Of a DNA stretch of 64,000 bases, positions 17,401-64,000 are shown in pieces (within the stretch, counting starts at the first letter, position 1; each line of letters opens with the position of its first letter). Below the pieces are notes generated by a model, which did no database searches, was not told the origin of the DNA, and saw only the letters and a program-made list of their open reading frames with translations. Location of the stretch: NCBI GenBank assembly GCA_905220665.1, contig CAJNAR010000157.1, positions 248,001 through 312,000 of the forward strand, read 5' to 3'. This stretch comes from Albugo candida (Eukaryota > Oomycota > Peronosporomycetes > Albuginales > Albuginaceae). Made by a program: the position numbers and the translations under genes.

Positions 17401-17960
17401 TATTCCATAGCGTTATGTCCTACTTCCACCGCGAAGGAACACAAGACCTCCGACCTCTATTTATTCGAAGACAAGTAAGGCTTGGTACATGAATGAAAGC
17501 AATGAATCACGGTACCTCCATCTCGTCACAAACAATCGATAAAGAGTGCAATAGACCGGAGGATGCATCTATGCCGAGTGCTTTATCATACCGCTTGATG
17601 AGACTACTCGCGATGCTGATGCTCTTCTTACGGCTTCCATTGACGATCCACTAGCAATAGGATGTTCCCCCTTTATAATAACGAATGCTACCATGGACGA
17701 CTGCCAGTGCTGAATGTACGCCAGACCGAGGCTGCACTGAGACGATTGAACGTGATTGTCGGAGCTATTTGCGTGAAATTCAGCACTAACGCATTCTGTT
17801 TGCGAATGAAAATGCAAAAAGATCAGTGTCATGAGGTCCGACTACGTTCATCAGCTGACTGGCATTTCGTGTGTTTTCGAGGGTTGATAGCTCGTAGGAG
17901 AGAGAGATTGCAAATGCGAAAGCCGCTTGCATGTGCGGAAGTACGATCCTCAAGGATTGT
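14458..17960. other. Gene-poor region with foldback element
   Basis: No gene is supported over 3.5 kb. It contains a purine-rich tract (about 15100-15165), the palindrome listed separately at 16035-16375, and many short frames without domains. Composition is similar to the surrounding DNA. It may be decayed mobile-element sequence, and it probably continues the repeat that starts by 17961. Confidence 0.45.
16035..16375. repeat. Long inverted repeat / foldback palindrome
   Basis: Two arms of about 165 bp face each other around position 16203. The outer end of the left arm, GGGCGCTGCTCGCGCTTACG (from about 16048), recurs as its reverse complement near 16350-16370. Further matching blocks include CTTTCATTTGTC, CAGCTATC, AATATGGTCT and TTCCCT-CAGCTAC. 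The arms are diverged but clearly homologous, with almost no spacer. This is the form of a foldback or MITE-like element or of a recent inverted duplication. No transposase is encoded. Confidence 0.65.
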
Positions 17961-20108
17961 ACCCCATTGTCATCGTCAAAGAGCTGGTCTGGTGACTGAT
18001 GTAAGACCGAAGAGAGCGCTTAAGGTCACGAGTGCTCATCGAGTTGAACGTCGACCCGTTATTCTTTCTCACTAACGAGATAAACGATGCTGAGAGGATC
18101 CGACGGCACGCATAGTCCACTGTTCTCTTTTTGCGGACGTGCTGGCTATCGCCGGAAATGAGGAAGCCCTTCAGCATATAGTTATCATGACACTAATCTT
18201 GATGGTTTTTGGATCATTTGACTCGTATCGGTAATATCGATAAGATTGTGAGTATCTCATGGCGTCGATGATAATGATTTTTACAATTCTTTATTTCTCA
18301 CATAAATTTGCGACCTCTACCGCTTCCTGCAGCATTTAGGAACTGATAGTGCATCAAAGATACGCACACGGAGTATTCTATGAAAACGAAAGAATATTCC
18401 AGTCGCACCATCCTATGGCACATCATTCTGTCCGTTCGTCTCGAAGTTTAACTGTTAAAACGCGAACAAAATGCTCCCAGATCTTTAATGGGACAATAAA
18501 GGAACCCATTAGCATCAACGCCGTTCTCAAATGATTTTCAAAGCACTTTTGTCGCCAGCAGACATTTCTGATAACGGTACTCTCTTCAAGTAGGCCGTGC
18601 TCGGCGGGCTTTGTGGCACCATTGCTATAACCCCTTCCACCGCAAACGTTAGTTCCAATAAACAGCTTTTTACCATCCATTATAAGAATTTTTTAAGGTT
18701 TTTGCTGAATCTAACTTCACGTCGGATGGGATTGTGTGCAACGTCAGCCATTCTGTCGTATTCGGTGCTCAGATGTACACCACAGCAATCATAGATGTTA
18801 AGGCTGAATGAAAGTTGAATAGCAGGTGAACATTGAATGACTGTGCATGCTTTCAATACAAAAAAACGTTTAATTTCTTCCAAACCACTGCTTGGAGCTT
18901 ATAGTGTTTCAGCTGTTTCGACGTCTTGTTGCTTTCTATGGAGTGTGGAGACGGATTATTCTCTCTTTGAGTGCTCTATGGTTGGTAGATGGTAGTAGCC
19001 GCAAATGATGGGCGAAGACTTCAAAGTGTCGCCGCCACTCCCAATCGTTCCAATAGATCGCAGCACAAAAAACTCAAACAATACAGCAAAACTTTGAAAT
19101 GGTACCATCACATTGGTCGTGTACCATTCTATCGGTACACGTTCCAAGCTTGTTACTTGATTCGAAATCGCATTGGAATGTGTTTAACGTTCCACTCTTT
19201 CCAGCTTGTAGATTTGCGAAGATATTCCCAATACTTTGATCCCCACATTCCCGCATCTCTTTTGTAACGACGAGTGCACGTTGTTAGACGCCACTTTTTC
19301 CAACGAGCCCACCGTAGCACTGATTCAATTTGACGTGCAATGTCCCAAACCCAACACAGCCATTGAATTAGGTTGATGCATCCCTGGTAGCTCAACATCA
19401 TTCGCTTGTAGTTGTCCTCCAAATATTCGATTGCCACCACCTTTCCCACGACCACCAACATCTCGGTAGCCACCTTTTCAGTTGCCTTACGGGCAATAAT
19501 CACAGCCGCCTCCTCCACTTCCACCACACGGTCGATTGTATATCCAAGCCATTGCCGGATCTTTATTCGAACCACACTTACGATGCTGCAGACCGTATCA
19601 ATCACAGTGTCAAAAATTTCTTCGAGTAGGGTAAACATGTTAACGTTCGCTGATTTTTTTTAAAGTGATTCCAGGCATCCTTGAGTTCCTAGCCATATTC
19701 TCCATCTTCTCCATCAATTAAATCTGAGTCTGGTCTCTTTGCGGAATTTCTGCGTGGCGATGAGATGGAGAAGCTTTAACGTGCCTTGGCAGTCAATTCG
19801 TCAAAACTCTCGTTCCAATTGATCCGATTTGCTGATATGCCAGGTATATCAACAAATCAGATCAATATATACACGAATCCTGTCGATTTGATGCTGAAAG
19901 ACATCAAAAGAATAGAATAGAAGGAACTTGATGCGAGCATGACTATCACGTTTATGTAATCAGATGCTTGTAAAGTTATATGTTGTTCTGTCAATAGTAA
20001 ACTCGGAATCGTTCTTGCGTTATAGAAGTTTTCATGAAGAGATGCACCATACTGTCATAATACATAAACCGCGCTTATCGCATATTTGCCTTGAGTTTAG
20101 CCACCTCT
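17961..20108 (-). repeat. Copy A of a >2.1 kb dispersed repeat (inverted relative to copy B)
   Basis: This stretch aligns in reverse complement with 61887-64000. Homology ends abruptly near 20108 (matching 61887 in copy B). On the other side it runs at least to 17961, where copy B is cut by the window edge, so the true element is longer. Small indels account for the length difference. Divergence is uneven: low around the 161-codon frame and higher near the boundary. It is a candidate unclassified mobile element; no transposase, reverse transcriptase or terminal motif was recognised. Confidence 0.8.
19153..19638 (-). CDS. Repeat-borne hypothetical protein, copy A
   Basis: An intact 161-codon frame with ATG inside the repeat, matched by an equally intact frame in copy B (7 amino-acid differences). 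The product has an amphipathic/hydrophobic N-terminal half (FTLLEEIFDTVIDTVCSIV), then a long Val/Ala/Glu-rich helix and an unusually Trp- and Arg/Lys-rich C-terminal half (LIQWLCWVWD, WARWKKW). It belongs to no family I recognise. Of 12 nucleotide differences between copies, about 8 are non-synonymous, so protein-level selection is not evident. It may be an element-encoded protein or a frame open by chance. Confidence 0.4.
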   Translation of the reverse strand: MFTLLEEIFDTVIDTVCSIVSVVRIKIRQWLGYTIDRVVEVEEAAVIIARKATEKVATEMLVVVGKVVAIEYLEDNYKRMMLSYQGCINLIQWLCWVWDIARQIESVLRWARWKKWRLTTCTRRYKRDAGMWGSKYWEYLRKSTSWKEWNVKHIPMRFRIK

Positions 20109-21307
20109 TTGTCCTATTCGTACAATGTTTCGATGAAGTATTGGAATCCGCTTGTGAAAATTGGCGCACGTCTGTAAGTGTATGGAGTGAGTCCTAAACT
20201 ACTCTATTGGCACTTTCGTTCTTTAAGGGATTCCCCGTGGTACAAAAATTTTATATTTGGATTAGTTAAGTATCTGATTCTGTAGTTCCTTCCGATGTCC
20301 GATGGTGTTGAGGGATCTCCTTGGTGGAAGCGTTTGTCAGGAAGCGGGTGGAACTCGCACTGATCCGATTCGCGAGAAAGATAAATTTCGTCTGCTTGCC
20401 AAGTCCACGCACAAGCGATTACTAATCGCCAAGGTCGCGATCTCGCACTCTACTGCCAAGACCTTCTCAACCGCTTTAAGCACAGAAATGGGCAGTTTTG
20501 GAGCAACTGGCTTGTTTTGCGCATTCTTTCCTATGCGATATCGAAATGTACTTTGGAGAGGAAACGGCACATGCTCTTTATCTGATCTTTTGGCTGTAAT
20601 TACAAAATAGAACCAAATCCTTGCCATCGCATCAAATACATTGGTAGAGATTGTTGCGCGACATTCTCTGATTTTGGAAGATGCTGTAGAAACATACAAT
20701 TGATGAGAAAGATGTTAGCAATCAGAAAAAGGTCGCGGTTGAATACAAATACTCTATAGCAATTCAGCCTGATGTAGCGGTGAATAAAGGTCCCTCATCA
20801 AAAACCTGTGAAGATTCTTTCTTAATAAGAACTTGGAAGTTGATGCTAATCATTTTCTTCCATAAGCAGAACACGACGAGTAAGCCAACCATTTATGATC
20901 TCCCCGTTTTGTAGAGCCAAAGATGATATGATAGCAAGCTGCCGCATGAGCCTTAGACCGTTGCCGACGAGCACGGGACGCTTCATTAAATAGATGCGAT
21001 ATTGTGGACCAAAGATACTGCGCCTGTGGTTACATATTTGTTCGCGTCTTCATGCCCAAATGAACAAGAGCCCATAATCCGATACTAATCGTAGCATTTC
21101 AATTCGTTCACACCGGAATTAGTTGCTCTTATTAGATGGGAAAAATCTTAGAAAGCGGATGCGTAATTAAAATACTTTCAAATGCATGTGCCTATCCATA
21201 CAATCATAAGCGAACCTGAGTGAGAAAAAAAGAGGAATGCGAGAGTTACTCCAAGTGTTATACATGTAGCTCAGCTTGATGCCACTGAGATTAAGCCTAA
21301 CAAATAG
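20109..21307. other. Gene-poor region left of the PPCS-lipase fusion
   Basis: No gene is supported. A 120-codon minus-strand frame at 20337-20699 has protein-like composition but no recognisable domain and no homologous copy in the window. It is the best candidate for a degraded element fragment here. Confidence 0.35.
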
Positions 21308-23923
21308 TCAAGCGGCCGAAAATTCCACAGATTCCTTCATATTCGTATCGTAATACAAAAAGTCATGATACCGAAAGTAAGTCACCAGCTCGGTCATTCC
21401 AACGTCACGTTGTGTGTGACATTCCCGTCCACGGTGTCCGTATTGCTGACATACTTTGCATTTATGCTCGCCAGTGCTGTGGTTGGTGCGTCCACAATGA
21501 CGACATGGCTTGCCACGGTGAGGACAGTCGGAGCCACGATGAGTACCTCGTTCGGTACAATAACGGCAACGATGTTGCTCTATTGAATGACCTTTTCGCT
21601 CACATATGCAGCAGACGGTAGCGGCCTGAAAATGGGATTTTTTGATGACTCGATCAATGATACGATCCGCTCCACGCACGATGGGAAGCATAGAGAAAGA
21701 AGATGGCAAGCGTCGTGCAACTCCAAGGCCATTCTCACGCAAAAAGATCTTGATTGCAGCATCGCTGTATCCTTCCGAGGTGGGAGGAAAAGCATGAATG
21801 TTATCGGACGGGTGCATTACATTCAAAATCTGTTCAGGCTCGAATAACAATTTGAGACGAGCTGCAAATCCAGCATCCCCAACGCGCGGCGATCCGAATC
21901 CAACGAAATCGATTTTACTCACATCCAGTCCTTGCACTCGACATCGATCACCCAAATATAGCATGAGAAGCTGTCCGAGCATCCCGCCCATGCTGTATCC
22001 TGTTATGTGCACTGCAGCGCCAATTTTTATATACTTCATTATTGCTTCAATTATTCCTTCCATGATCATATCGTCCATGTATCCTTTTAAAGATCTATGG
22101 ACTCGAACATGACTTGCTTGTTTTTGTGATTCAAGTCCTTCTTGCTGCATGTTATCATGCCTTCTCACACTTCTTGTGTGGACTTGAATACGAGGATGAT
22201 CGAGGACGAGTGTGTCGTATTCACGGATCAAGGGATGCTTGATAAGTTCTTCAAGTGACGTCAAATCAGTGACATCCACTAAACCACGAATCAATCCAGC
22301 TGATATCATGTTTTGGATGCTCTGTCGTACCCTTGTTTGCTCACCTTCTGACCATGCCGATCCGATCTTGCTCCACATAAATTGTAATAAAGCAGCCGCG
22401 GAAGAATAATCTCCAGTTATCGAAGCCGTCACAACATCAAGCGCAGATGTGAGAGATACTGATTTGAGCTGGTACTTCAGTTCACATATCTCTTTTTCAG
22501 CCCATCCAGACCAGAAATCTCCCCAGACGTCTCTAATGGTATTTGGCGTTCCCGCTGGACTGAAAGCGATCACTACATCCAAACCACTATCATGGGTATT
22601 GGATTTTGCCAGGTTACCTTCCCATACATGAGCACGAGCGCAATGACTGCGATTCTGGAAAATTTCTTTCAGCTCATAAATTGGTGATTGCGCTCCCAAC
22701 TTTCTTTGAGTTCGTATTTGAAGCCCTTTGCCAAACTTGACGTTTTTATTACCAGCGGCGTCTTCATTCAGTAAATCTGTAGGCTTCAACATACAGAACT
22801 TGGCCGACAACAACAAAAGTTCTTTCGCTTTTTGCAGTATTGCACGCATTTTGCAGAAGTTACGATGTAAATCTGCAATCCTTGCAGCGAACGCATCATT
22901 AATATCCTCATGCTCCGGACATGTGAGAATCGTCTCGTCTTGTTCAGTGACCAGAAGTATCTGATGCGGATGTTCCATGCGGTTGACTCCAGCAATCACA
23001 TCTACCCCATACTTTTCCAAGTCTTTGTGTGCGGTTTCAATCATAGTTTCCTGTGGTAAATCATACCTGAAGGAGACCAAAAATGCCTTTGGGCACCAAT
23101 CTTTGCGAATTTTCCGAATCAAATTTGGAGCTCGGACAAAGTGGATGGATAGCTTCATGTCTATTTTTTCATACTGTTTACTGAAATAATTTGTACTGTT
23201 GGCATTTTTTTGGCTATTTCTGATGGCATTGATATTGGCTCCATTCTGCTTCCCCCAAAAGGGCGTCTCCGAGTGAATGGGTACATAGTATTCCATGACC
23301 GTGGCAGCCAAGATGACGATACCACGAGTATTCGCTTTATGAATGGCTTGTGTAGCGATGCGAAGAAGCAACAAATATTGCTGCAAACAGCTAAACGATA
23401 CTTTCAACATATGTTGTTTTGAAATAGCATGAGTCTTCATGATCTTATAGAAGCGCTCTGTCTGGGCTTTATCCATGCCGCCCAATATAATGCAATCATT
23501 CTCGTCTTGGTATTGAAATATATCGAGTAGAGTGTCCTTCTGGATATACTTTTGAAAGTGTCGTGTGAATGGCTGCAGCGAGTCTTCTCGACACAGGAAG
23601 ATGACGCTATACTTGATGGACAGGAGGTACTCTACGCACGCAGGCCCTTGATATTCTTGCACTCTACCCGTTAGATCAACAAATAATTCTTTTGTCCTAT
23701 CTAGAGGAACATTCGTCGGACCGGAAGTCACAAGAGCGATTCCTCGGCAGCCATCTTGCTCCATTTCACGTTCGATAAAGCTGTGAGTACTTCTTTCATG
23801 CTCCAAAAGTTGCCATTCGGGGTCTTCCTCAATCTGATTTTGAAAAAAATCTTCTACAAAAGTATCTGAATCGGCTGTAACATCACCACCGAGTCTCTGG
23901 CGAATCGCGTCCCATATTGACAT
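21308..23923 (-). CDS. Fusion: phosphopantothenate-cysteine ligase-like + class 3 lipase + zinc knuckles
   Basis: A single ATG-initiated exon of 871 aa. Residues about 60-345 resemble eukaryotic phosphopantothenoylcysteine synthetase (CoA pathway): ALVTSGPTNVPLD at the start, ILAATVMEYYVP, then DWCPKAFLVSFR and VDVIAGVNRM with ILLVTEQDE. Residues about 445-725 resemble a class 3 lipase: DVVIAFSPAGT, nucleophile Ser644 in GYSMGG, FVGFGSPRVGD, then SDNIHAFPP with a plausible Asp707. Residues 771-835 hold four CCHC zinc knuckles: CX2CX4HX6C, CX2CX5HX4C, CX2CX4HX6C and the classical CX2CX4HX4C. The glycine-rich substrate motif of PPCS looks degenerate (FVDLTGRVQEYQG), so ligase activity is uncertain. 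I know of no described protein with this domain set. Confidence 0.75.
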   Translation of the reverse strand: MSIWDAIRQRLGGDVTADSDTFVEDFFQNQIEEDPEWQLLEHERSTHSFIEREMEQDGCRGIALVTSGPTNVPLDRTKELFVDLTGRVQEYQGPACVEYLLSIKYSVIFLCREDSLQPFTRHFQKYIQKDTLLDIFQYQDENDCIILGGMDKAQTERFYKIMKTHAISKQHMLKVSFSCLQQYLLLLRIATQAIHKANTRGIVILAATVMEYYVPIHSETPFWGKQNGANINAIRNSQKNANSTNYFSKQYEKIDMKLSIHFVRAPNLIRKIRKDWCPKAFLVSFRYDLPQETMIETAHKDLEKYGVDVIAGVNRMEHPHQILLVTEQDETILTCPEHEDINDAFAARIADLHRNFCKMRAILQKAKELLLLSAKFCMLKPTDLLNEDAAGNKNVKFGKGLQIRTQRKLGAQSPIYELKEIFQNRSHCARAHVWEGNLAKSNTHDSGLDVVIAFSPAGTPNTIRDVWGDFWSGWAEKEICELKYQLKSVSLTSALDVVTASITGDYSSAAALLQFMWSKIGSAWSEGEQTRVRQSIQNMISAGLIRGLVDVTDLTSLEELIKHPLIREYDTLVLDHPRIQVHTRSVRRHDNMQQEGLESQKQASHVRVHRSLKGYMDDMIMEGIIEAIMKYIKIGAAVHITGYSMGGMLGQLLMLYLGDRCRVQGLDVSKIDFVGFGSPRVGDAGFAARLKLLFEPEQILNVMHPSDNIHAFPPTSEGYSDAAIKIFLRENGLGVARRLPSSFSMLPIVRGADRIIDRVIKKSHFQAATVCCICERKGHSIEQHRCRYCTERGTHRGSDCPHRGKPCRHCGRTNHSTGEHKCKVCQQYGHRGRECHTQRDVGMTELVTYFRYHDFLYYDTNMKESVEFSAA

Positions 23924-27629: not shown

Positions 27630-28921
27630 ATGCTGTCCGGAAATCGAATGAAAATGAGGTAATTTACAGAGAAATTTACCAGCAAAGCTGAAAAACGCAC
27701 TTTTGATCCAGGGTAGGATGGATTGGCACTGGGATAATGGGACAAAGCATGTGTAGTCATCTTCTTGTATGTACTCATCACATTTTGAGCTACCTCAAAC
27801 ACTAACGCAAGCATGGTACATCCACAGCATCACGGATATGACGTGACAGTATGTAACCGCACACTCAGTAAATGCAATGCGCTTCGAGATAAGGGTGCTC
27901 GTGTCGTTTCCACCGCAGCAGACGTAGCCAGTTATGCAGGTTGGATTCTTTGCATCGCATCATAATAGTGGATACTAAAGTCGGAGCTTTTTACATGCAG
28001 ACATCATTTTCGTAATGGTCGGATTTCCGTCCGAGGTGCATTCAGTCATGCTAGATCCTCATAACGGAATATTAAGTCGAATGCGAGTTGGTGGAATCAT
28101 AGTTGACATGACCACAAATGAACCCACATTCGCGAAAGAATTATACGATATGGCGAAAATAAAAGGTGTTTCTGCCTTAGATGCTCCAGTCTCCGGTGGT
28201 GACATTGGAGCTCGTGATGGGACGTTATCGATAATGGTCGGCGGTGATGTCGATGCAGTGTATGCAGCAATGCCTTACTTCAATCTAATGGGAAAGAATA
28301 TTCGCCACATGGGTGGACCGGGAGCTGGGCAACACACTAAAATGGTAAATCAGATTTTAATAGCGTCGGCCATGGTTGGTGTTGTGGAAGGTCTTTTGTA
28401 TGCACATCGATGCGGTCTGGAATTGAATGAAATTATCAATGTCGTGAGCATGGGTGCTGCTGGATCTTGGTCAATCAGTCATTTGGGTCCTCAAATCGCC
28501 GAGCGTAATTTTGAGCCTGGTTTCCTTATCGATCACTTTATCAAAGACATGTCAATTGCTCTCCAAGAAGCTCAAAAGTATAGAACCGTGCATAAGGGTT
28601 GCCTAACTGCTCTCATACATATCTCTCTTTCCAGAATGCGCTTGTCACTTCCAGGACTTGCTTTGGCTCATCAGTTCTACAACGCTGCCAAGGTCAGTTT
28701 TTTATCTTAACTTGAAGCCCGCACAAAACGCCCTGAACAGAATGTGTGTACTTTAGGCTCACGGCCACGGACGGTCAGGGATTCAGGCTTTGATTATTGC
28801 ACTGGAACAATTAAATGGTACGTCAATTCAATGCAAAACGACTCTGCTTCAGCCTCTCATCATGTACAAATTATTAGGAATTCAAAATAGAAAGTCAGCC
28901 GATGATGTTGAAGTCGTCTAG
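27630..28921 (+). CDS. NAD(P)-dependent beta-hydroxyacid dehydrogenase (3-hydroxyisobutyrate dehydrogenase family)
   Basis: Seven exons (27630-27658, 27712-27750, 27812-27939, 28001-28577, 28635-28692, 28757-28817, 28878-28921) give 311 aa, the usual family length. The Rossmann motif VGWIGTGIMG is formed across intron 1. Also present are YDVTVCNRT, the substrate loop DAPVSGGDIGARDG, the catalytic-lysine segment GAGQHTKMVNQ and the C-terminal LPGLALAHQFY. Substrates in the family include 3-hydroxyisobutyrate, tartronate semialdehyde and succinic semialdehyde; I cannot choose between them. No strong mitochondrial presequence is seen. It lies only 54 bp after the FAR1-like stop, on the same strand. 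Valine catabolism would link it to the BCKDH E1 alpha gene at 37 kb, though that is speculative. Confidence 0.9.
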
Positions 28922-37189: not shown

Positions 37190-38657
37190 ATGCTTAGCTG
37201 GATCAAGAGATCAAAATCAATTCCAAAACAGCTTATTTTGCAACGTACAATTTTACATTCACAGCTCGTCACTAGTATAGGTGCATCGATCAGCGTGTGC
37301 TCGAAATCTGCCCTGTTTGACCTTTGGACGCGTAGCCTTTTTTCCAGGAACAAATATACCGTATGCTTCGACTTTGCAGTTTAACAATCCTGCAGAAGAT
37401 GCTGTCCTCCCCTGTTATCGACGTAACGCTACTACTAGACGAAAACGGCTCGCTGATACTCCTTTTTAGTTCTTAATGTTGATGGAGAAATGGTTGATAG
37501 TATGTCGAAGCCAGCCATGAAGCAGAGTGCGATTTTACAATCGTATCAAAAAATGATTTGCATGAAAGTACGCGCATAACAAATTTGATCTCTGCTTAAT
37601 TAAAAATTTAACTCTACAGATAATGGACAGCATTTTATATGATGCGCAACGACAGGGCCGAATATCTTTTTATATGACATCTTACGGAGAAGAAGCCGTC
37701 AGTTTTGGAACAGCAGCTGCTTTGGATGCCAAGGATATGGTATTTGCTCAGTATCGGGAACCTGGCGTCTTGATGTGGCGTGGTTTTCAGTATCAAGATT
37801 TTGCTGATCAATGCTTTGGGAATATCGACGGTCATGGAAAAGGACGCCAGATGCCTGTGCATTATGGATCGAAAGCACTAAACTATCATACCATATCATC
37901 TCCATTAGCTACTCAAATCCCACATGCCGTCGGAGCAGCGTATGCATTCAAACTAAGTAAAGAAAAAAGAATAGCTGTTTGCTATCTAGGCGAAGGCGCA
38001 GCGAGTGAGGGTGACTTCCATGCTGGTCTCAATGCTGCAGCTACTAGGGATTGTCCAGTACTATTTGTCGTGCGAAACAACGGGTATGCAATTAGCACAC
38101 CACGGAAAGACCAGTATCGGGGTGATGGTATTGCACCAAGAGGAATTGGCTACGGAATATCATTTACACGTGTAGATGGAAACGATCTTTTGGCAGTTTA
38201 TGAAGCAACAAAAAGAGCACGAGAGTTTAGCCTACAAAACAACAAACCAGTGATTTTAGAGCTAATGTGTTATCGTACTGGTCATCACTCAACATCAGAC
38301 GATTCGACGCGATATCGACCGGTGGATGAGATATCGGACTTCAAAGAATGTTTTGACCCGCTCCTTCGCGTCAAACGATACCTGATCGTGAGTGAACAAG
38401 TTCTGATATCATAATTTTGACGTACTTGGTTGTAGAAGCATGAATTGTGGTCAGAAGAACAAGATGTGGTACTTAAAGATACCGAGCGACTCAATATGTT
38501 GAAGGCACTACAAATTGCTGAAAGGAAGCGCAAACCAGGACTGGATACCATGTTCGAAGATATCTACGACAAAAAGCCGGCTCTGATAGCAGAACAAGAA
38601 CAAGAAATGTGGGAGCACATTGCCAAATATCCGGAAGAATATACGATAGAAAGCTGA
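37190..38657 (+). CDS. BCKDHA: Branched-chain 2-oxoacid dehydrogenase E1 alpha subunit
   Basis: Five exons (37190-37244, 37294-37422, 37470-37567, 37620-38387, 38436-38657) give 423 aa. The first exon makes a basic, Ser/Leu-rich mitochondrial presequence ([18 protein letters not shown]). Then come [39 protein letters not shown], the thiamine-diphosphate motif [13 protein letters not shown] to [10 protein letters not shown], and the E1 alpha phosphorylation loop [13 protein letters not shown] with the regulatory serine kept. With E1 beta it decarboxylates branched-chain ketoacids in the mitochondrial matrix. An upstream ATG at 37100 gives only a 60-codon frame and is rejected. Confidence 0.95.
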
Positions 38658-61886: not shown

Positions 61887-64000
61887 AGAGGTAGCTGAAC
61901 TCAAGGGAAACATGCGATAAGCGAGGGTTATATATTATGACAATATGGTGCATCTCTTTATGGAAATCTCTATACCGCAAGAAAGATTCCGAGTTTTCTA
62001 TTGACAGAACAACATATAACTTTGCGAGTATCTGATTACATAAACGTGATAGTCATGCTCGCATCAAGTCCCTTCTATTCTAGACTTTTGATGTCTTTCA
62101 GCATCAAATCGACAGGATTCGTGTATGAATTGATCTCATTTGTTGATATACTTGGGATATCAGCAAATCGGATCAATTGAAACGAGAGTTTTGACGAATC
62201 CATTGCCGAGGCACGTTAAAGCTTCTCCATCTCATCGCCACGCAGAAATTCCGCAAAGAGACCAGACTTAGATTTAATTGATGGAGAAGATGGAGAATCT
62301 GGCGAGGAAACTCAAGGATGTCTGGAATCACTTTAAAAAAAATCAGCTAACGTTAACATGTTTACCCTACTCGAAGAAATTTTTGACACTGTGATTGATA
62401 CGGTCTGCAGCATCGTAAGTGCGGTTCGAACAAAGATCCGGCAGTGGCTTGGATATACAATCAACCGTGTGGTGGAAGTGGAGGAGGCGGCTGTGATTAT
62501 TGCCCGTAAGGCAACTGAAAAGGTGGCTACCGAGATGTTGGTGGTCGTGGGAAAGGTGGTGGCAATCGAATATTTGGAGGACAACTACAAGCGAATGATG
62601 TTGAGCTATCAGGGATGCATCAACCTAATTCAATGGCTGTGTTGGGTTTGGGACATTGCACGTCAAATTGAATCGGTGCTACGGTGGGCTCGTTGGAAAA
62701 AGTGGCGTCTAACAACGTGCACTCGTCGTTACAAAAGAGATGCGGGAATGTGGGGATCAACGTATTGGGGGTATCTTTGCAAATCCACAAACTGGAAAGA
62801 GTGGAACGTTAAACACATTCCAATGCGATTTCGAATCAAGTAACAAGCTTGGAACGTGTACCGACAGAATGGTACACGACCAATGTGATGGTACCGTTTC
62901 AAAGTTTTGCTGTATTGTTTGAGTTTTTTGTGCTGCGATCTATTGGAACGATTGAGAGTGGCGGCGACACTTTGAAGTCTTCGCCCATCATTTGCGGCTA
63001 CTACCATCTACCAACCATAGAGCATTCAAAGAGAGAATAATCCGTCTCAGCACTCCATAGTAATCAACAAGACGTCGAAAAAGCTGGAACACTATAAGCT
63101 CCAAGCAGTGGTTTGGAAGAAATTAAACGTTTATTTGTATTGAAAGCATGCACAGTCATTCAATGTTCACCTGCTATTCAACTTTCATTCAGTCTCAACA
63201 TCTACGATTGCTGTGGTGTACAACCGGTCACCGTATACGAAAGAATGGCTGATGTTGCACAGAATCGCATATGACGTGAAGATGTATCCAGCAAAGACCT
63301 CGCAAGATACTTACAATACTAAATTGGATGGTGAAAAGCTGTTTATTCACAAAGCCCGCCGAGCGCGGCCTACTTGAAGTACCATTATCAGAAATGTCTG
63401 CTGACGGCAAAAGTGCTTTGAAAATCATTTGAGAACGGCGTTGCTGCTAATGGGTTGCTTGTACTGTCCCACTAATGATTTGAGAGCATTTTGTTCGCGG
63501 TTTCACAGCTTGAACGTCGAGACAAACGGACAGAATGATGTGCCATAGGATGGTACGATAGGAATATTCTTTCGTTTTCATGGAATTCTCCGTGTGCGTA
63601 TCTTTGATGCACTATTGGTTCCTTAGTGTTGCACGAAGCGGTAGAGGTCGCAAATTTATGTGAGAAATAAAGAATTGTAAAAATCATTAAAATCGACGCC
63701 ATGAGATGCTCACAATCTTATCGATATCACCGACACGAGTCAAATGATCCAGAAACCATCAAGATTAGTGTCATAATAACTATATGCTGAAGGGCTTCCT
63801 CATTTCCGGCGATAGCCAGCACGTCCGCAAAAAGAGAACAATGGACTATGCGTTCCGTCGGATCCTCTCAGCGTCGTTTATCTCGTTAGTGAGAAAGAAT
63901 AACGGGTCGACGTGAAACTCGAGGAGCACTCGTGACCTTAAGCGCTCTCTTCGGTCTTCTTTCGCTCACCAGACCATCTCTTTGACGATGACCACGGGGG
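61887..64000 (+). repeat. Copy B of the >2.1 kb dispersed repeat, truncated by the window
   Basis: It aligns in reverse complement with 17961-20108. The left boundary is sharp near 61887, about 50 bp upstream of the TMEM16 start codon. It continues to the last base of the window, so its far end is unknown. It carries the intact 161-codon frame. It lies in inverted orientation to copy A, with about 41.8 kb of genes between. Confidence 0.8.
62358..62843 (+). CDS. Repeat-borne hypothetical protein, copy B
   Basis: The 161-codon frame matches the one at 19153-19638 over its full length with 7 substitutions and no indel. The product is amphipathic with a Trp- and Lys/Arg-rich C-terminal half and no recognised domain. 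A T-rich/A-rich stretch (TTTAAAAAAAATCAGC) lies just upstream. Whether it is translated is unknown. Confidence 0.4.
   Translation: MFTLLEEIFDTVIDTVCSIVSAVRTKIRQWLGYTINRVVEVEEAAVIIARKATEKVATEMLVVVGKVVAIEYLEDNYKRMMLSYQGCINLIQWLCWVWDIARQIESVLRWARWKKWRLTTCTRRYKRDAGMWGSTYWGYLCKSTNWKEWNVKHIPMRFRIK

Follow-up and report, generated by a model that had tools for sequence, protein, structure and literature searches.

What does a protein do that joins a domain of coenzyme A (CoA) synthesis, a lipase and a row of zinc knuckles, and is such a protein real? The question is raised by a gene of the oomycete Albugo candida in a stretch of 64,000 nucleotides, here called the window (positions 248,001 to 312,000 of contig CAJNAR010000157.1, assembly GCA_905220665.1), for which a preliminary description had proposed a fusion of a phosphopantothenate-cysteine ligase (PPCS)-like domain, a class 3 lipase and a cluster of CCHC knuckles. 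We find that the gene encodes one real protein that is conserved across oomycetes. Its PPCS-like domain is predicted to be a pseudo-enzyme, its lipase triad looks intact, and its knuckles appear to be inserted in the lipase; tentatively, the dead PPCS may dock the lipase to CoA synthesis. Genome searches covered 38.9 Mb in 196 contigs, among which C155 is the contig of the window.

The fusion gene and its homologues

21308..23923, minus strand: whole coding sequence of the fusion gene, a single intron-free open reading frame for 871 amino acids plus stop

The uninterrupted frame lies at exactly the positions first proposed, to which we add the strand, previously not given. It is far longer than chance would allow, since the longest open frame over 100 first-order Markov simulations of the window had only 280 codons. 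The whole protein matches two of the expected Pfam profiles, Lipase_3 (1.2e-9, residues 616-715) and, barely over its cut-off of 22, DFP (7.1e-5, 23.1 bits, residues 249-322); a sequence search of the PDB returned human PPCS (2.4e-18) and yeast CAB2 (7.6e-17). Together with conservation across homologues, these matches bear out the three-part fusion.

In the protein searches, scores were computed just for the approximately 8000 candidates that shared most words with the query, and restriction to oomycetes is read within that scope. The window protein (P0001) had 46 matches at E up to 1e-5, 36 of which span 100% of the query; one of the 36, P0002, is identical to it, and full-length homologues are generally about 38-60% identical. 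Every homologue with a species name is from an oomycete (Lagenidium, Pythium, Globisporangium, Phytophthora, Nothophytophthora, downy mildews, Saprolegnia, Achlya, Aphanomyces), so that the fusion may be a lineage marker; for some rows marked 'lgn' or 'ena', among them P0034, P0037 and P0045, no species is given. None of the 46 matches bears the name of Albugo laibachii, although that species provides the best match for the canonical PPCS described below. Because the fusion is common to Phytophthora, Pythium, downy mildews, Saprolegnia, Achlya and Aphanomyces, it is older than the split of these lineages, and hence than this genome. The database entries are named, automatically, 'hypothetical', 'lipase' or 'phosphopantothenate-cysteine ligase'. 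One further relative, P0048, came from a profile search of the same protein database. Residue counts for the fusion are from alignment A1, which holds P0001 and 28 of the 46 matches, leaving out P0002 and short, fragmentary or near-duplicate entries.

Aphanomyces stellatus has two fusion paralogues (P0038 and P0041), whose positions in different clades of the tree suggest an old duplication within the Saprolegnia-Aphanomyces lineage.

The PPCS-like domain

22838..23863, minus strand: PPCS/CoaB-fold domain, residues 21-362, predicted pseudo-enzyme
23630..23689, minus strand: degenerate active-site motif, residues 79-98, where canonical PPCS has VRFLDNFSTGxRG
23153..23281, minus strand: variable low-complexity loop, residues 215-257, standing where the conserved EHKxxS loop should be

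Both the structure model and the PDB sequence matches place a PPCS fold in this domain. We compared 22 fusion domains with 27 canonical PPCS, all picked for spread (the canonical set is this genome's own protein plus 26 taken from the 120 matches listed of 3262; canonical numbering is used). Arg58, Asn62, Ser209 and Lys223 are present in 27/27 canonical proteins and in none of the 22 fusions, with gaps in seven at Arg58 and Asn in 21 at Lys223, while His205 and Lys206, again in 27/27, each survive in a single fusion of the 22. Asp61 (21/22) and Gly69 (22/22) are retained. All 22 fusions have thus lost both the Arg and the Asn of the canonical VRFxDNFSxGxRG motif, and a variable loop stands in place of the Lys-bearing loop that reaches the partner's active site. 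In CoaB the dimer forms via a beta-sandwich, and such a loop from the opposing protomer closes the active site (PMC7794376). The pairs R207/N211 and D281/K293 of Msm CoaB, described as common to its active and allosteric sites, have the same spacing as the canonical PPCS residues, and their equivalence rests on that spacing; R207 is critical for the second half reaction (PMC7794376). A maximum-likelihood tree sets the 22 fusion domains apart from the 27 canonical proteins with 100% ultrafast bootstrap on the separating branch. The domain keeps the PPCS fold, has lost key active-site residues and looks like a pseudo-enzyme, as had been suspected from its degenerate motif.

The genome also has a separate canonical PPCS gene, as a profile search of the contigs revealed (C170:329762-331128, minus strand). 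Our hand-made model of it has five exons and four introns (48-59 bases, GT-AG) and encodes 385 amino acids, with an intact active-site motif, VRFLDNFSTGSRGA, and 87% identity to its best match, the A. laibachii protein. The preliminary description had proposed looking for other PPCS genes, and this one rules out the fusion as the organism's sole PPCS. The search listed this single place and missed even the fusion; weak copies thus escape it, and the number of PPCS genes counted is a minimum.

Each of the 14 oomycete canonical PPCS examined (the one of this genome and 13 more proteins) has a conserved hydrophobic C-terminal end with GGxxS, which the 13 non-oomycete PPCS examined lack. The best 17-residue mean hydropathy at this end is 2.2-2.5 in the 14 oomycetes and at most 1.5 in 13 non-oomycetes; the oomycete canonical PPCS is possibly a tail-anchored protein.

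The lipase and its catalytic triad

21692..22837, minus strand: class 3 lipase, first and main part, residues 363-744
22550..22561, minus strand: SPAG loop, residues 455-458, invariant in 29/29 and found in P0048 too, a candidate oxyanion loop
21983..22000, minus strand: GYSMGG with catalytic Ser644, 29/29
21803..21805, minus strand: Asp707 (in HPxD), putative catalytic Asp, 29/29, aligned with Asp412 of P0048
21329..21397, minus strand: C-terminal segment, residues 843-865, with the putative catalytic His853 at 21365-21367

The class 3 lipase with Ser644 in GYSMGG stands as first described: the protein has both the Lipase_3 profile match and the class 3 lipase fold. SPAG[TN] sits where class 3 lipases have their GT motif. 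Ser644, Asp707 and His853 are each found in 29/29 fusions. By mean pairwise identity in A1, the C-terminal 32 residues (837-868) reach 0.72 and the knuckles 0.70, the lipase core 0.655 and the PPCS part 0.50.

Two other residues were tried as the catalytic His and dropped, position 764 as not conserved in the alignment and position 710 as invariant in the fusions yet not His in P0048. P0048 is a 536-amino-acid EukProt transcript product with no PPCS domain and no knuckles; its lipase matches that of the fusion (hmmsearch 1.2e-48; BLASTP 5e-34), N-terminal segments LLLSAKF and SPAG included. Near its end SRYHGYEYY aligns with FRYHDFLYY of the fusion, and the His in question, His504, is the sole His past the Asp that is common to 10/10 rows of that alignment; in a wider alignment, A3 (P0048, P0001 and 37 matches), it is at least 90% conserved and not invariant. 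Placed on lipase-fold chains, the model of P0048 superposed as far as residues 503-512 in 40 of 50 rows listed. The corresponding chain ends in feruloyl esterase and in the Thermomyces and Rhizomucor lipases are 244-259, close to their catalytic His residues, which we take to be 247, 258 and 257, respectively. The Ser644-Asp707-His853 triad looks intact, with His853 as catalytic His supported but not proven.

The genome search listed 16 Lipase_3 matches, the four strongest of which lie on one contig within 131 kb (C5:170326-301099).

The zinc knuckles

21416..21613, minus strand: four zinc knuckles, residues 771-836, alternately CCHH and CCHC, apparently within the lipase

Knuckles 1 (771/774/779/784) and 3 (807/810/815/820) read CX2CX4HX4H, knuckle 2 (786/789/795/800) reads CX2CX5HX4C, and knuckle 4 (822/825/830/835) is the only one with the exact spacing CX2CX4HX4C. 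Their sixteen ligands are conserved in 463 of 464 cells (29 proteins of A1). The zf-CCHC profile was not listed in the Pfam scan of the whole protein, and on the isolated piece it reached 15.7 bits, below its cut-off of 20.8. Of the cluster first described, the four knuckles stand; the alternation of X6 and X4 does not, its 'X6' having taken in the first Cys of the next knuckle. Residues other than ligands are also invariant in 29/29 (Arg785, Arg792, Gly793, Thr817, Gly818, Gly832 and Arg833, for example), and since these lie between Cys and His they suggest a binding surface.

We considered the knuckles as a C-terminal tail and rejected this, because P0048, a lipase free of knuckles, fits an inserted position better. 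Insertion in the lipase between Asp707 and His853 is, like the assignment of His853, supported but not proven. In the simplest history, a class 3 lipase would have acquired a PPCS copy at its N-terminus and, between Asp and His, a knuckle cassette.

Proposed function and alternatives

We tentatively favor a reading, plausible rather than probable, in which a pseudo-PPCS, a lipase with intact triad and inserted knuckles form one device, the dead PPCS docking the lipase to CoA synthesis. PPCS being a dimeric fold, its dead copy would be the docking half, pairing with itself or with the canonical PPCS and so carrying the lipase to the enzymes that synthesise CoA, where fatty acids freed from lipid would meet CoA for activation. 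The hydrophobic tail of the oomycete canonical PPCS could place this partner at a membrane. The knuckles, adjoining the putative catalytic His, might bind RNA or a partner protein and position or gate the lipase. That the pseudo-PPCS is most likely the docking half is argued by analogy with the yeast PPCDC paralogues: none of Hal3, Vhs3 and Cab3 has both catalytic residues, and they work as subunits of hetero-oligomers (PMC4626798). Cab3 has been named as scaffold of a complex that synthesises CoA, and in mammalian cells PPCS is found near pantothenate kinase (PMC7865483).

Several points weigh against this proposal. In the ligase part, Asp194 and Lys242 are retained in 14/22 and 19/22 fusions, and P0007, one of the 29 fusions of A1, has Lys at the Lys223 position, so that some ligand binding may survive. 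The tree puts the fusion domains on a long branch outside all 27 canonical PPCS, not within the oomycete PPCS. In the lipase part, the C-terminus taken by itself gives a weak match of P0001 to P0048 (E 0.06). Ten of the 50 rows listed for the P0048 model stop short of the His and, by the numbers that we assume for the catalytic His, the chain in the Thermomyces and Rhizomucor lipase rows stops about two residues before it; the superposition ranges, moreover, give the first and last aligned residue only. When the fusion itself was modelled, its superposition on fungal lipases stopped at about 738-745, short of the C-terminal segment, and just two rows, both of plant PLA1, extended to 861-862. 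Both structure predictions are poor at the C-terminus, and that of the fusion also at the knuckles: its mean predicted local distance difference test score (pLDDT) is 65.2, falling below 50 over residues 708-719, 736-769, 778-800 and 807-871, and P0048 is likewise below 50 over residues 413-536. Dimerisation, lipase activity and the binding of zinc and RNA are, for the fusion, predictions.

The alternative that survives best, though we consider it unlikely, concerns the knuckles: these could be a mere structural zinc clamp that stabilises the lipase C-terminus and binds neither RNA nor a partner. Their apparent insertion beside the putative catalytic His would suit a clamp, as would the rank of the ligands and the C-terminus as the most conserved parts, but the conserved non-ligand residues between Cys and His suggest a binding surface, and the lipase of P0048 has no knuckle at all.

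Somewhat more doubtful is that the PPCS-like domain serves as a metabolite sensor, binding phosphopantothenate, a nucleotide or CoA and thereby switching the lipase on or off. The intact fold and the retention of Gly69, Asp61 and Lys242 speak for such a sensor; set against them, the equivalents of Arg58, Asn62, Lys206 and Lys223 are lost in at least 21/22 fusions, and the loop that should cross to the other protomer is now of low complexity and variable length. A further extension, which we rate lower again, as speculative, would make the protein a ligand-gated lipase of the CoA pathway: the dead PPCS would dock on the CoA complex, and the knuckle cassette would let RNA, zinc or redox state control the release of fatty acids where CoA is made.

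We regard it as very improbable that the PPCS-like domain keeps a ligase-type activity on another substrate, the protein being truly bifunctional. In the oomycetes sampled, conservation extends to the fold and to much of the core, which would fit an enzyme, but the equivalents of Arg58 and Asn62 are absent from all 22 fusions, and the Msm counterpart of the former, by spacing, is the critical R207 (PMC7794376).

Local duplication and origin

The weakest alternative, rejected as hardly credible, is that the gene is an artefact, two or three neighbouring genes having been taken for a single one, or else that it was recently retrocopied or captured: it has no intron where the canonical PPCS model has four, but 36 of its 46 matches are full-length and co-linear across oomycete genera, further long uninterrupted frames lie near it, and its local second copy arose by duplication of DNA together with the 3' flank. 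The preliminary description had set an intronless gene against split neighbours and had suggested retroposition or capture. Five further frames in the window run without a stop for 745 to 1013 codons, so that the lack of introns is no distinction, and most oomycete protein models consist of a single open reading frame (PMC2705460). No intron-bearing parent of the entire fusion is known. With the fusion common to oomycete genera as well, a recent retroposition or capture is not supported, while an ancient retroposition is conceivable.

17950..23880, no strand assigned: segment that recurs, partly rearranged and inverted, at C155:309887-317523 (window 61887-64000 and beyond), including a truncated second gene copy

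The second copy (C155:312055-314634, plus strand) begins 55 bases past the window end, on the opposite strand. Its protein is 99% identical from residue 14 and its coding part 98.9% identical. It lacks the first approximately 13 codons, and has two in-frame TAA stops and six extra bases at one place; by these signs it would now be a pseudogene. About 0.6 kb of non-matching sequence follows, and then a 3' flank that is 92.6% identical over 2.2 kb. Because the flank was duplicated along with it, the copy is an inverted duplicate made at the DNA level and not a retrocopy; it may conceivably be an assembly artefact. The segment also includes an inverted local repeat of about 2 kb (window 17950-20108 and 61887-64000, 92-94% identical), in which the one open reading frame tested had no Pfam match. 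Counting itself, the 1.45 kb core of this repeat, next to the second copy, was found three times in the genome, each time on this contig.

A 3-hydroxyisobutyrate dehydrogenase-like gene (27979-28710) and one resembling that of a dehydrogenase E1 component (37566-38414) lie less than 15 kb from the fusion. Both can serve the breakdown of branched-chain amino acids; their closeness is possibly chance.

Comparison with known systems

The preliminary description had called the combination undescribed. Our literature searches by architecture and locus tags, with most subscription papers and Table S1 of PMC2705460 outside their coverage, gave no paper on the fusion, and to that extent the claim holds; the protein itself is already in public databases under its automatic names. 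Neither the loss of the ligase site nor the splitting of the lipase triad appears to have been described. Events of this kind have precedents, since oomycete genomes are rich in lineage-specific fusions: 273 novel multifunctional fusion proteins have been counted in Phytophthora sojae (PMC2705460), and 1120 domain combinations are specific to oomycetes (PMC3681718). In its main text PMC2705460 mentions neither 'lipase' nor 'pantothen', 'zinc', 'DFP', 'cysteine ligase' or 'knuckle'; its Table S1 may contain the orthologue.

The interest of the protein is that, in oomycetes from Saprolegnia to Phytophthora and Albugo, an apparently dead enzyme of CoA biosynthesis is joined to a lipase. A scaffold role, if true, would link lipid breakdown physically and directly to CoA supply, and a knuckle cassette inside the lipase fold, if true, would be a new mode of regulation for class 3 lipases. 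The protein also poses a defined question on oomycete lipid metabolism.

The fusions differ from eukaryotic PPCS (human PPCS, yeast Cab2) and bacterial CoaB by the lost equivalents of Arg58, Asn62, the His-Lys loop and Lys223 (with exceptions of 1/22 at each loop position), by carrying a lipase, and by the presence of a separate canonical PPCS in the genome. With the Rhizomucor and Thermomyces lipases, feruloyl esterase A and plant PLA1 they share the fold and the order GxSxG, Asp, C-terminal His, the last being putative in the fusions; to these they add the N-terminal pseudo-PPCS, a long insert (466-600) ahead of the Ser loop and the knuckles, apparently between Asp and His. The knuckles resemble those of zf-CCHC in being short CX2CX4HX4[C/H] units in a row, and depart from them in that 1 and 3 are CCHH, 2 is CX2CX5H and the piece scores below the Pfam cut-off. 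The yeast proteins Hal3, Vhs3 and Cab3 offer a parallel, a fold of the CoA pathway with catalytic residues missing that is reused as subunit, scaffold or regulator (PMC4626798, PMC7865483), although they belong to the PPCDC and not the PPCS step, form a trimer and not a dimer, and have no lipase. The fusion proteins of P. sojae, as lineage-specific domain fusions that are mostly single open reading frames (PMC2705460), are of the same kind as the protein described here.
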